Part shown: one piece after another, positions 12,152 to 15,456 of the stretch | How positions within the stretch are numbered: the first letter of the stretch is position 1 | How the letters are laid out: every line of letters starts with the position of its first letter | DNA from: Pseudothermotoga hypogea DSM 11164 = NBRC 106472 | GTDB lineage: Bacteria > Thermotogota > Thermotogae > Thermotogales > DSM-5069 | Reading direction: 5' to 3' | Length of the DNA: 64,000 nt | Assembly: GCF_000816145.1 (NCBI RefSeq) | Contig: NZ_CP007141.1 | Span: 620,001 to 684,000, forward strand | Translations under genes and position numbers: made by a program | Notes under the pieces: generated by a model | What the model was told of the DNA's origin: nothing | The model's database searches: none | The model's input: only the letters and a program-made list of their open reading frames with translations

Positions 12152-12181
12152 ATCATAGCCGACTTCAACCGATCGAATCAA
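12152..12181 (-). promoter_or_regulatory. Probable promoter of the hppA operon
   Basis: Minus strand TTGATT (12176-12181), an 18-bp spacer and TATGAT (12152-12157). The -35 lies inside the last codons of the upstream deacetylase gene. The predicted start is near 12145, about 33 nt before the TTG start of hppA. Confidence 0.5.
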
Positions 12182-13256
12182 GGAGGTGTGTGAGAAGATT
12201 TCCCGCAACAGGTATCAACTCATCTGGGGGTAAAAACTTCGAAGAGTGTAAACCCTCCACACGTGATCCGTGTCTAACACCGAACCAGAACATCAGACTC
12301 GGGAAATGTTTGGAGAAGTAACCAAAGTCTTCAGCGGTGAGCTTTCTTTCACATTCGATGAACTCAAAACCGTTGCGCTGAGAGACGACTCTCAAAACGT
12401 CCAACAACTTCTCATCGACCTTTACCTCTGGATATTCCGCGCCGGGTATGACGGAAACTTTCAGCTCGGTTTCTTCTTCGACTTTCTTCGCAATCTCCTG
12501 AAGTGCGACGAGGATATCTTGAACACCCTTGGAATCGCTCGCCCTCACAGTTCCTTCGATGAGAGCCTCGCCGGCCACCGTGTTCCTGACATGACCCGCG
12601 AGGATCCTGCCGAACCAAACCAAATCTTCTTTCCAATCTCTCCCATAGATTTGATTCAGAAACGCCACACACCCACGCAGTGCGTCCTTACCCAGCTGGT
12701 GGTTCGCCACATGGGCCGAACGTCCCAACACGCGCACGTTCACTTCACATGAAGCACTGAAGAGCGATCCGGATCTACTTGCGACGATACCCATCGGATA
12801 TTCATCCGCCACGTGCATCGCTATGGCAGCTTTGACCTCACAATCCCAGCGCAAAATGTGTTCAACGATCGTTTTTGCTCCCGCGCCACTCTCTTCTGCT
12901 GGTTGAAAAACGAACAAGAAATTTCCCTTTCGCTTTTCCTGGACTATCCTTCTCATTGCCCAGCAGGCTGCGGCTATGTGAAAATCGTGACCACAAGCGT
13001 GCATGTTTTCGTTCTTTGAACGGAAGGGATAGTCCGTTTCTTCAGGAATGGGCAACGCGTCCAGCTCGGCCCTCAGAACAACGAAAGGTTCGTCTTTGTT
13101 TCTACCCACCAAAACCAACACACCCGTACCGACTGTGACGATGTTATTCAACCCGAGGCCATGAGCGAACTCTATTATTAACTTCTGTGTGTTGTGTTCC
13201 TCGAACGCCAACTCAGGATTTTGGTGAATCAACCTTCTCAACATGATTTCGTCCAT
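12165..13256 (-). CDS. M20 amidohydrolase, probable N-acetyldiaminopimelate deacetylase
   Basis: 363-aa M20D-type metal-dependent amidohydrolase. LRAELDALPIPEE is followed by HACGHDFH (metal ligands Cys and His) and QPAEESGAGA (catalytic Glu). A dimerisation domain begins around residue 175. Family members include carboxypeptidases and indole-acetyl-amino-acid hydrolases. Here it follows dapH and a class III aminotransferase in one operon, which points to removal of acetate from N-acetyl-L,L-diaminopimelate in the acetylated lysine route. ATG 13256 overlaps the aminotransferase by 44 nt and has AAGGAAG upstream. The fold is certain, the substrate inferred. Confidence 0.82.
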   Translation of the reverse strand: MDEIMLRRLIHQNPELAFEEHNTQKLIIEFAHGLGLNNIVTVGTGVLVLVGRNKDEPFVVLRAELDALPIPEETDYPFRSKNENMHACGHDFHIAAACWAMRRIVQEKRKGNFLFVFQPAEESGAGAKTIVEHILRWDCEVKAAIAMHVADEYPMGIVASRSGSLFSASCEVNVRVLGRSAHVANHQLGKDALRGCVAFLNQIYGRDWKEDLVWFGRILAGHVRNTVAGEALIEGTVRASDSKGVQDILVALQEIAKKVEEETELKVSVIPGAEYPEVKVDEKLLDVLRVVSQRNGFEFIECERKLTAEDFGYFSKHFPSLMFWFGVRHGSRVEGLHSSKFLPPDELIPVAGNLLTHLLDSIG

Positions 13257-14394
13257 ACGCTTCCTTCAGGCTCCTTTCGAACAAATCCACCATCTCCTCG
13301 ATTCCTTCAAAACTGATGTTGAGGGCTGGAAGGAATCTCACAACGTTGTTAGAAACTATGTTCAACAGGAGTCCATTTTCGAACGCAGCCTCTTTCAGCA
13401 ACTTCGCATCCACATCCACTTCGACTCCGATCATCAGGCCGAGCCCCTTGATCTTGACCCGTGCCGAATCCATCCGCGACAATCTCTCTCTGAAGAACAC
13501 ACCTTTTCTGGCAACCAGTTCGATGAATTCTTCTGTGAGCTTTCTCAGAACAACCCTTGCTCCTGCCAGTGCCACCGGGTTCGGTGCGAACGTCGAACCA
13601 TGTTCCGAATGGCCAAACACGTCAGCGATGTCATCGAGAAAGATCGCCGCACCGAGTGGTAAGCCTCCACCCAGCGCCTTTGCCACGGTCACGATGTCAG
13701 GCTGCAATCCAAAGTGTTGATAAGAAAAGAACTTTCCCGTTCTACCGAGTCCCGCTTGGACCTCGTCGGCCACCAAGAGGAACCCGAAGCTTTGTTTTGC
13801 CTCCATTATGAGTTTGGAAAGTTCATGACTCAACACGTTTAAACCACCGCTGCCGTGAACGCACTCAACAAAGACAGCGGCGATCTTCTTGCCATTCTTT
13901 TTGACAAACTCTTCAAAAGCTCGAACATCGTTGTAAGGCAGGAAAACGACGTCTGGAAGGAGGGGTTCAAAAGGTTTTTTCAGCTTTTCAAAGCCGGTCA
14001 AAGACAATGTGGCAACGGTTCTGCCGTGAAAGTTCTTTTCAAAGGACACGATCAAACCCTTTCGTAACTTCTTGATGGCCTTCAATGCTGCTTCGTTGGC
14101 CTCGGCACCGGAATTCGCAAAGAACACTTTCCCGTTTCTACCAGTTCGTCGAATCAGTTCTTCAGACACGATCTCTGCGTCCTCATCGAGGAAGAAATTC
14201 GAAATGTGCGTGTAGCGTTCCATCTTTTCGATCATGGCTTTCTTTATGTCTTCATCGTTGTGTCCAAAAGCGAGGACGCCTATCCCTGAGAAAGAATCGA
14301 GATAACGCTTTCCATCTTTGGAGTAAATGTACAACCCCTTGGCACGTTCGATTTGAATGGGGAAAGGATCATAAACACGACAAATATGACTCAT
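13213..14394 (-). CDS. Class III PLP aminotransferase, probable N-acetyldiaminopimelate aminotransferase
   Basis: 393 aa, ArgD/acetylornithine aminotransferase type. It has the PLP phosphate-binding NSGAEANEAALK, the ring-stacking FHGRT segment, the Asp motif LLVADEVQAGLGRTG and the Schiff-base Lys in TVAKALGGGLPLGA. By context it would transaminate N-acetyl-2-amino-6-oxopimelate using glutamate, between dapH and the deacetylase. A role in arginine synthesis is possible too, since ArgD enzymes are often bifunctional. GTG 14403, ATG 14397 and ATG 14394 are all in frame. ATG 14394 is preferred for its distance from GGGTGAT. Confidence 0.83.
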   Translation of the reverse strand: MSHICRVYDPFPIQIERAKGLYIYSKDGKRYLDSFSGIGVLAFGHNDEDIKKAMIEKMERYTHISNFFLDEDAEIVSEELIRRTGRNGKVFFANSGAEANEAALKAIKKLRKGLIVSFEKNFHGRTVATLSLTGFEKLKKPFEPLLPDVVFLPYNDVRAFEEFVKKNGKKIAAVFVECVHGSGGLNVLSHELSKLIMEAKQSFGFLLVADEVQAGLGRTGKFFSYQHFGLQPDIVTVAKALGGGLPLGAAIFLDDIADVFGHSEHGSTFAPNPVALAGARVVLRKLTEEFIELVARKGVFFRERLSRMDSARVKIKGLGLMIGVEVDVDAKLLKEAAFENGLLLNIVSNNVVRFLPALNISFEGIEEMVDLFERSLKEAYGRNHVEKVDSPKS

Positions 14395-14399
14395 CATGA

Positions 14400-15161
14400 T
14401 CACCCGAGCAGCGTGTTCAGATGTCTCAGAGCTTCGACAATCTTGGTCTTCTCCTTCGTTTTCTCATCGACCTTTTTGACGAATCGCGCTGGAACACCTG
14501 CAACGACGGTGTAAGGCTCCACATCGTTTATCACCACAGCTCCCGCCGCCACAACCGCTCCTCTGCCGATCCTCACGCCTTCGAGGACCACCGCGTTCGC
14601 ACCGATGATCACATCGTCCTCAACGATTACAGGCGTCGCACTCGGAGGTTCCAACACACCCGCAATCACTGCCCCTGCACCCACATGACAGTTCCTTCCG
14701 ACTATGGCTCTCGCACCAATGACCGCGTTCATGTCGATCATGGTCCTCTCACCGATCACGGCACCGACGTTGATGACCGCACCCATCATGATGACTGCAC
14801 CGTCACCGATCTTCACCATGTCCCTGATGATCGCACCGGGTTCTATCCTCGCATTGTACTTTGTTAGGTCGGCCAACGGTAAAGCAGAGTTTCGCGCTGA
14901 AACTTGCACATAAAAGTCTTCGATCTGATCGCGATGGTTCTCGATCAGCTTTTTGAAATCTTCGTAGTCTGCCACGACGATACCGAAATCTCTGTTTCCG
15001 AAAAAGCGGACCGCAGAGAAGTCGACCTCGTCCAGCCTGCCTTTCACGAAGGCCAACACAGATGTTCGCTTCTTGGACTTGCTGATCAGCTCGATCAACT
15101 GTTCCGTGCTCTGAAAATCCATGCTCTCCGTACTGGTACTGTCCAGAATTTCACCCTGCAT
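14400..15161 (-). CDS. dapH: Tetrahydrodipicolinate N-acetyltransferase
   Basis: Transfers acetyl from acetyl-CoA to 2,3,4,5-tetrahydrodipicolinate, opening the acetylated diaminopimelate branch. 253 aa. The N-terminal domain (about 1-95) is DapH-specific. It is followed by a left-handed beta-helix of hexapeptide repeats (about 100-230: GDGAVIMMGAVINVGAVIGE, IGRGAVVAAGAVV) and the closing VVAGVPARFVKK. ATG 15161 has AGGAGGGGTGA just upstream. It is the first structural gene of a lysine cluster. The leader in front carries an attenuator (see entries at 15177-15340). Confidence 0.95.
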   Translation of the reverse strand: MQGEILDSTSTESMDFQSTEQLIELISKSKKRTSVLAFVKGRLDEVDFSAVRFFGNRDFGIVVADYEDFKKLIENHRDQIEDFYVQVSARNSALPLADLTKYNARIEPGAIIRDMVKIGDGAVIMMGAVINVGAVIGERTMIDMNAVIGARAIVGRNCHVGAGAVIAGVLEPPSATPVIVEDDVIIGANAVVLEGVRIGRGAVVAAGAVVINDVEPYTVVAGVPARFVKKVDEKTKEKTKIVEALRHLNTLLG

Positions 15162-15176
15162 GCTCTCACCCCTCCT

Positions 15177-15209
15177 AAAAAAACCGGGCTACCTTTTCGG
15201 TAGCCCGGT
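15177..15209 (-). terminator. Attenuator terminator in the dapH leader
   Basis: On the minus strand ACCGGGCTACC (15209-15199) and GGTAGCCCGGT (15193-15183) pair perfectly over 11 bp with a 5-nt loop, followed by seven T (15183-15177). The hairpin lies directly before the dapH Shine-Dalgarno, with no other gene between it and the leader. It therefore decides whether dapH and the genes behind it are transcribed. Confidence 0.88.
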
Positions 15210-15267
15210 GATCTTTTTCTCCGATCGGTGTGCTACAATGAGTGCACACCGCCACAGATCACCGGGC
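15203..15267 (-). promoter_or_regulatory. Antiterminator structure in the dapH leader
   Basis: GCCCGGTGATC (minus strand, 15267-15257) is the exact complement of GATCACCGGGC (15213-15203), which contains most of the terminator's 5' arm. The two pairings exclude each other. Between them, GGTGTGC (15250-15244) and GCACACC (15233-15227) form a 7-bp hairpin. This is the arrangement of a transcription attenuator. No lysine riboswitch (L-box) core or T-box sequence was recognised. Confidence 0.75.
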
Positions 15268-15340
15268 GGTTGCACTTCTTCTCCTTCTTTTCCACTTTCG
15301 CTTCACATTTGAGGCTTCTCACAAACAATTTCGTGCCCAC
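15233..15340 (-). CDS. Possible Lys-rich leader peptide of the lysine operon
   Basis: Open frame of 35 codons ending TAG at 15235-15233, inside the loop between the two antiterminator arms. With start GTG 15340 it has GAGGGAG ten bases upstream. A shorter form from GTG 15295 has 20 codons and a weak site. Seven of the 35 residues are Lys, including the cluster EKKEKK, which ends three codons before the antiterminator arm. Ribosome pausing there would leave that arm free to pair, and smooth translation would not. The purine-rich DNA could make Lys codons by chance. No homologue could be searched. Confidence 0.45.
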   Translation of the reverse strand: MGTKLFVRSLKCEAKVEKKEKKCNRPVICGGVHSL

Positions 15341-15366
15341 GACTGATCTACTCCCTCTTGCTTTGA

Positions 15367-15372: not shown

Positions 15373-15456
15373 ATATCATCAAAAGCCCATAATCTGAACA
15401 GACAGGAAAGACTCTCTGACGAAAATGTTACGCCACCGTGCGATCCGAGCGACGTT

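Follow-up and report, generated by a model that had tools for sequence, protein, structure and literature searches.

A candidate lysine-responsive, ribosome-mediated attenuator upstream of dapH in Pseudothermotoga hypogea and related leaders in the Thermotogota

How is the acetyl branch of lysine synthesis controlled in Pseudothermotoga hypogea DSM 11164 = NBRC 106472? Lysine synthesis in the Thermotogota was formerly assigned to the lysine riboswitch, which is described for most Thermotogales (PMC3766115). In the 64,000-nucleotide stretch of this genome (termed G000) that was analysed here, hereafter the window, the minus strand carries an operon composed of dapH, a class-III aminotransferase and an M20 amidohydrolase (Table 1). 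The amidohydrolase is probably the N-acetyldiaminopimelate deacetylase, a specific function assigned from its operon position, and the three genes together make up the acetyl branch of lysine synthesis. The initial annotation had drawn attention to a Lys-rich reading frame and two alternative pairings upstream of dapH, and had seen no core of a lysine riboswitch there.

Anatomy of the leader upstream of dapH

The dapH leader (minus strand, about 15358-15161) contains a Lys-rich ORF, a hairpin designated P1, an antiterminator and a terminator, the pairings of which are mutually exclusive. The terminator (ACCGGGCTACC-GAAAA-GGTAGCCCGGT, 15209-15183) is indeed the 11-bp stem that had been noted directly before the dapH ribosome site; it is followed by six T residues (seven including the last paired T) and immediately thereafter by AGGAGG (15176-15171) and the ATG of dapH (15161). 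The divergent plus-strand neighbour of dapH is a phosphofructokinase-type gene (PF00365). Placed between divergent genes and just 5' of a ribosome site, the terminator cannot end an upstream gene. The complementarity reported for 15257-15267 and 15203-15213 has no mismatch and can be lengthened to 12 bp (15267-15256 with 15214-15203). The parts of the leader named in the initial annotation are therefore real, but it overlooked both P1, a 12-bp hairpin (15276-15265 with 15253-15241) whose loop encloses the greater part of the antiterminator 5' arm, and an alternative hairpin, predicted to arise within the antiterminator.

The reading frame begins with GTG and its TAG stop lies, as had been described, in the intervening loop, between the two antiterminator arms. 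GTG 15340 lines up with the ATG start codons of the closest relatives and was preferred as the start of the frame over a TTG codon at 15382. Toward its 3' end the frame reads AAA GTG GAA AAG AAG GAG AAG AAG TGC AAC CGC, and then CCG GTG ATC TGT GGC GGT GTG CAC TCA TTG TAG, the last AAG-AAG pair lying at 15280-15275. Five of the eight control codons specify Lys, against a background of 6.4% (p = 5e-5). Calculated energies are -49.6 kcal/mol (z -6.4) for the termination fold and -38.4 kcal/mol (z -7.0) for the antitermination fold in isolation; neither was equalled in 200 shuffles.

Table 1. Features of the dapH leader and its operon in the window
Feature	Position	Strand	Remarks
Shine-Dalgarno-like AGAGGGAG, 5' of leader ORF	15351..15358	-	read directly
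Leader peptide ORF	15233..15340	-	GTG start 15340, TAG 15235-15233; MGTKLFVRSLKCEAKVEKKEKKCNRPVICGGVHSL, 35 aa; read directly
Main control codons AAG AAG GAG AAG AAG (Lys-Lys-Glu-Lys-Lys)	15275..15289	-	last two invariant in 9 genomes
P1 5' arm AGTGCAACCGCC	15265..15276	-	predicted to be covered when a ribosome stalls at the last Lys codon
P1 3' arm GGCGGTGTGCACT, one bulged G	15241..15253	-	
Antiterminator 5' arm GCCCGGTGATCT	15256..15267	-	
Antiterminator 3' arm AGATCACCGGGC	15203..15214	-	shares 7 nt with terminator 5' arm
Alternative hairpin 5' arm CGGTGTGC	15244..15251	-	would form inside antiterminator
Alternative hairpin 3' arm GCACACCG	15226..15233	-	includes last base of TAG stop
Intrinsic terminator: 11-bp stem, GAAAA loop, T-tract	15177..15209	-	stem identical in 9 genomes
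dapH, tetrahydrodipicolinate N-acetyltransferase, first gene of operon	14400..15161	-	TIGR03532, 345 bits (cut-off 231.75); PF08503
Class-III aminotransferase, acetylornithine/succinyl-DAP type, overlaps dapH	13213..14403	-	PF00202; best NCBIfam TIGR00707, 376 bits, under cut-off 410
M20 amidohydrolase	12165..13256	-	TIGR01891, 207.5 bits (over cut-off); PF01546

This arrangement suggests the following mode of action. When Lys-tRNA(Lys) is abundant, the ribosome would clear the Lys codons and depart; P1 would then re-form and sequester the antiterminator 5' arm, and the terminator would halt transcription 5' of dapH. When lysine is scarce, the ribosome would stall while one of the two final AAG codons occupies its A site, masking the P1 5' arm and leaving the antiterminator 5' arm free, such that the alternative hairpin and the antiterminator could form, exclude the terminator and permit transcription of the operon. 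The sequence predicts that the ORF is translated, that uncharged tRNA(Lys) causes stalling, and that the choice between termination and read-through in the cell responds to lysine.

Further upstream, a stretch on the minus strand (15385-15435, TAACATTTTCGTCAGA ... TTCAGA) is conserved between the divergent genes, with similar sequence at the matching place in G001-G004 and G007-G010. It is perhaps an upstream promoter element or a regulator site.

Lysine leaders in other genomes and operons

A search for DapH homologues gave matches in 61 of 61 genomes. The leader upstream of dapH is kept in nine genomes of the same family, that of the window included (G000-G004, G006-G008 and G010), which span three genera. 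Among the nine leader peptides, the N-terminal half and the length vary; the frame, the start and the AAG-AAG pair are nevertheless all retained. The register is open in every one of them, most start with ATG near the matching place, a purine-rich stretch 5' of the start is also present in the homologous leaders, and AAG-AAG is invariant at the same point, while the upstream peptide is variable. The stop falls 30-33 nt past a reference codon, termed P, which is located at the antiterminator 5' arm and specifies Pro (CCG), except in G047, where it specifies Leu. P1 is present in all nine; all of the terminator pairs and 6 of the 12 P1 pairs are invariant. Since the stems scarcely vary, covariation within the family is weak, and it was therefore sought in leaders from other loci.

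The high conservation of the codons around the hairpin could also be expected of an arrest peptide, in which the nascent KKCNRPVI would stall the ribosome in the presence of free lysine or another ligand. These codons, however, sit in P1 and the antiterminator, so that RNA pairing accounts for their conservation; elsewhere the residues vary (KKAKRSHPL, KKTKHNCPL, VKKAKHSRLV) and only the placement of Lys is kept, with Thr in its stead in a leader before a homoserine dehydrogenase gene (hom). We consider an arrest peptide very unlikely.

The dapH leader is not unique, being one of a wider set in the Thermotogota. A covariance model built from the nine dapH leaders (R1) was run over 103 Thermotogota genomes and matched in 25 of them, genome counts of this kind being inflated by shared descent. 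Each match was read individually, and one (L165), a terminator without a leader peptide, was dropped. Elsewhere in the phylum, leaders with Lys codons are found before asd, dapA and dapF as well. Those before asd, e.g., MNKKAKRSC[P]LIGG (the reference codon in brackets), occur in kin groups f3/g6 and g14, which are devoid of the lysine riboswitch and which we infer to be Fervidobacterium-like; the asd leader of G047 reads VKKAKHSR[L]. The dapA leaders include IIKKTKHNC[P] in G009 and IIKKRNR[P] in G006. The dapF leader of G009 (NIKRYC[P]) retains the hairpins and has a single control Lys, which makes it the weakest member; a stronger Lys leader is present on dapA in G009. In G000, the genome of the window, a second leader precedes dapA-dapB (C1:1720156, NKKAKRSH[P]LV). 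No other leader of this type was found within the 64-kb window, and no attenuator was seen directly before the aspartokinase gene (G000 294343) or the asd-like gene (298719), both of which seem to be internal to longer gene runs.

Position P-4 is Lys in each of the 23 lysine-gene leaders. For a pooled codon test we took one leader per locus type and lineage (seven leaders), and 20 of their 56 control codons were Lys, the background frequency in long ORFs from the window being 6.4% (p = 1e-10). As the initial annotation had anticipated for related leaders, the Lys codons are conserved and the alternative stems covary, the latter across loci and weakly within the dapH leaders.

Structure, codon placement and alternative explanations

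Over the 32 leaders collected, 17 of the 23 pairs of P1 and the terminator are changed on both sides, a value not reached in any of 500 shuffles and higher than in all slid controls, in an alignment that was fitted to the structure and hence leans toward it. The antiterminator arms were compared on raw sequence: among 16 representatives, the mean pairing energy was -21.6 kcal/mol for arms of the same leader vs -13.2 kcal/mol for arms of different leaders (permutation p = 1e-5). The contiguous antiterminator pairs number 19 in the asd leader of G047 and 17 in the dapA leader of G000, with sequences unlike the dapH pair. By covariance model, P1 is present in all 32 leaders.

A terminator that is simply constitutive, lowering expression or blocking antisense transcription between the divergent genes with no sensing of lysine, would suit the location between dapH and the phosphofructokinase-type gene, the more so as the stem is terminator-like on the plus strand too. 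It would leave unexplained the conserved antiterminator, P1, and the Lys codons and their placement, and the device recurs before asd, dapA and dapF in other contexts; we regard this explanation as extremely improbable.

The placement of the codons was assessed by a masking scan, in which a ribosome was positioned on one codon after another and the RNA 3' of it was folded as far as the last nucleotide of the terminator 5' arm. In line with the usual bacterial footprint, the ribosome edge was set 12 nt beyond the first nucleotide of the A-site codon. In 28 of the 32 leaders, P-4 is the last stall codon that leaves the antiterminator free, and the antiterminator is lost from P-3 on; the three dapA leaders permit a stall up to P-3, and the trpB leader is outside the pattern. 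A 3-nt move of the assumed edge moves this boundary by one codon. Given the boundary between P-4 and P-3, the conserved Lys codon is located at or beside the last permissive stall position. The hom leader has four Thr codons, of which the last is at P-4. Before the terminator 3' arm exists, the antiterminator fold wins at equilibrium even without a ribosome, and the off state would therefore depend on P1 forming first and persisting. Early formation of a hairpin of the P1 type is a general assumption for such attenuators.

Searches for known regulatory RNAs bear on two further explanations. At Rfam gathering scores, the whole window yielded only SSU rRNA, and the dapH leader nothing. With E values up to 5, all of the Rfam families together gave two matches at the leader, both dismissed as noise: atoC RNA (RF01733; 18 bits vs a cut-off of 50, E 2.1) and GlsR4, far under its cut-off. 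The lysine riboswitch (RF00168) had no match in the window, the leader or the whole genome, while the Thermotoga maritima control was positive, in keeping with the observation that no lysine riboswitch core is visible here. The leader has a strong structure and good conservation, and this pathway is usually under lysine riboswitches in the phylum; the terminator might accordingly be controlled by an RNA that binds a metabolite, either a diverged lysine riboswitch or a different aptamer, the ORF being accidental. Yet in addition to the lack of an RF00168 match in the leader or genome, an aptamer would not explain the fixed register of the Lys codons in otherwise dissimilar leaders or the Thr codons before homoserine dehydrogenase, and it is in our view highly improbable. 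Direct binding of uncharged tRNA(Lys) by a T-box-like RNA has a negligible probability: T-boxes control amino acid genes through termination in many bacteria, but none was matched among all Rfam families with E up to 5, and a recurrent open frame with a start and a preceding purine-rich stretch would not be expected of one.

The dapH leader thus combines a terminator, an antiterminator, a 1:2 hairpin, a Lys-rich ORF and the appropriate placement of control codons. On the basis of this anatomy, the codon placement, the conservation of both structures, the covariation across loci, the absence of a lysine riboswitch and the match between codons and pathway, we conclude that the region 15358-15161 is very probably a lysine-responsive, ribosome-mediated transcription attenuator of the dapH-aminotransferase-deacetylase operon. 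The proposal made at the outset, whereby stalling at the Lys codons would allow the antiterminator to form and the dap genes to be read, is supported by the codon placement and the exclusive pairings, which predict such regulation.

Specificity, riboswitch exchange and known systems

In G006, the leaders of dapA (KKRNRP) and hom (GTTTTSNCP) are 82% identical over 114 positions (z 14.6), the hom gene being a homoserine dehydrogenase (NF004976, 523 bits). The hairpins are retained in both of these paralogous leaders, one of which has Lys codons and the other Thr, and the putative control codons match the product of each pathway. The pairwise similarity between the trpB and hom leaders is weak (z 3.7).

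RF00168 was detected in 57 of the 103 Thermotogota genomes and a lysine-gene leader in 20; none has both. The exclusion has a Fisher p value of 5e-9 by genome and 0.007 by genus, both uncorrected for descent. In G011 and G014 the riboswitch is situated just before asd of an asd-dapH operon, whereas in G012 a Lys leader is situated just before the orthologous asd; sister genera of family f3 therefore differ in the device that they use at one place. We favour, with moderate confidence, the reading that one scaffold has been copied between Thermotogota operons, retuned by its control codons, and in several lineages occupies the position of the lysine riboswitch at the head of the same operon. The versions of the scaffold would then include Lys (dapH, asd, dapA and dapF) and Thr (hom), and perhaps Trp, aromatic, His and Met.

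A second model built from all 32 leaders (R2) was also run over the phylum, the additional leaders being read by eye only. It revealed further leaders with Trp, aromatic, His or Met runs before matching genes; four matches (L210, L217, L218 and L223) were ordinary terminators without a leader peptide and were dropped. Several leaders of family f3 genomes (L157, L198, L200, L201, L202, L213 and L222) contain Trp-Trp-Trp, mostly before TrpB-like genes, and are candidates for a canonical-looking Trp attenuator in the Thermotogota. An aromatic run (FAYAYWWFRG) is found in the genome of the window (L204, G000:C1:285066-285229, minus strand) and similar leaders in G008, G009 and G010 (L207-L209); the gene after L204 encodes a TrpX-like tryptophan ABC transporter binding protein (NF041285, 253 bits, under cut-off; PF04392). 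The leaders YAYWF (L206, G006) and HNYYYFWF (L221, G027) precede genes read as DAHP synthase (by family search in G006 only), which suggests that aromatic amino acids control the shikimate pathway, including in a genome that has the lysine riboswitch.

Basic residues are represented by KKHVK, HHHK or KH runs (L155, L156, L159, L199 and L220 in f11; L168-L171 in f1/g4) before a lysine/arginine/histidine-type ABC transporter binding protein, and these leaders possibly sense two basic amino acids. A His-His-His leader (L215, G095:C9:72693-72827) precedes a gene of the histidyl-tRNA synthetase family (HisZ-like). Met runs occur in L211 (G040:C10:18689-18800, NMMAMMMRCTDR), L212 (G036:C8:4693-4808, MMPMMMWCTDR) and L214 (G022:C1:1386418-1386534, NMMAMMMWCTDR), all three with attenuator-like hairpins before aspartokinase-like genes. 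A methionine-specific ribosome attenuator is a possible interpretation of these leaders; to our knowledge, this specificity is not known from the literature.

The mechanism proposed for the dapH leader is classical ribosome-mediated attenuation and thus of a kind already known. The expectation that a peptide-based lysine attenuator in a thermophile would be new does not hold, given that Tsubouchi and colleagues reportedly described, about 2005, leader-peptide attenuation of the lysine genes of the aminoadipate pathway in Thermus thermophilus. There too, Lys codons in a leader peptide are said to control lysine synthesis genes of a thermophile, but the phylum, the pathway (diaminopimelate here) and the genes differ.

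In the attenuator model, a ribosome slowed on control codons leads to the II:III hairpin instead of the terminator (PMC1183508). The leaders described here resemble the trp, his, thr, leu, ilv and phe attenuators, mainly of Gammaproteobacteria, in having an ORF with codons for the product, exclusive hairpins and a terminator before the first gene; they differ in their Lys codons, in belonging to a phylum without listed cases and in matching no Rfam model. The Rfam attenuators comprise those for His, Leu, Thr and Trp only (with Ilv and Phe outside Rfam), and a gammaproteobacterial origin has been suggested (PMC3766115). Conserved leader ORFs with tandem cognate codons and attenuator-like features have also been described among small ORF motifs, e.g., uORFC-8-2 before cysS, in that case with cysteine codons, in Rhodobacterales and before a tRNA synthetase gene (PMC8632094). 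For the lysine operons of Actinobacteria, no conserved RNA regulatory structure was found upstream (PMC1262725). Our literature search, in which subscription papers were thinly covered, returned no report of such a lysine attenuator in the Thermotogota.

In related Thermotogota genera this operon, from asd to dapH, is under the lysine riboswitch (L-box), which, unlike the leader, binds lysine directly by means of an aptamer and is absent from every genome with a lysine leader. Sister genera would thus sense lysine either directly by RNA or indirectly via tRNA charging, for one operon and never by both devices in a genome, and this exclusion makes the exchange of regulatory mechanisms traceable. 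The paralogous Lys and Thr leaders represent a natural codon-swap experiment. If the wider set of leaders, for which there is no Rfam model, is confirmed, ribosome-paced attenuation would be a general form of amino acid control in a phylum rich in thermophiles, and would require the coupling of transcription and translation at high temperature.
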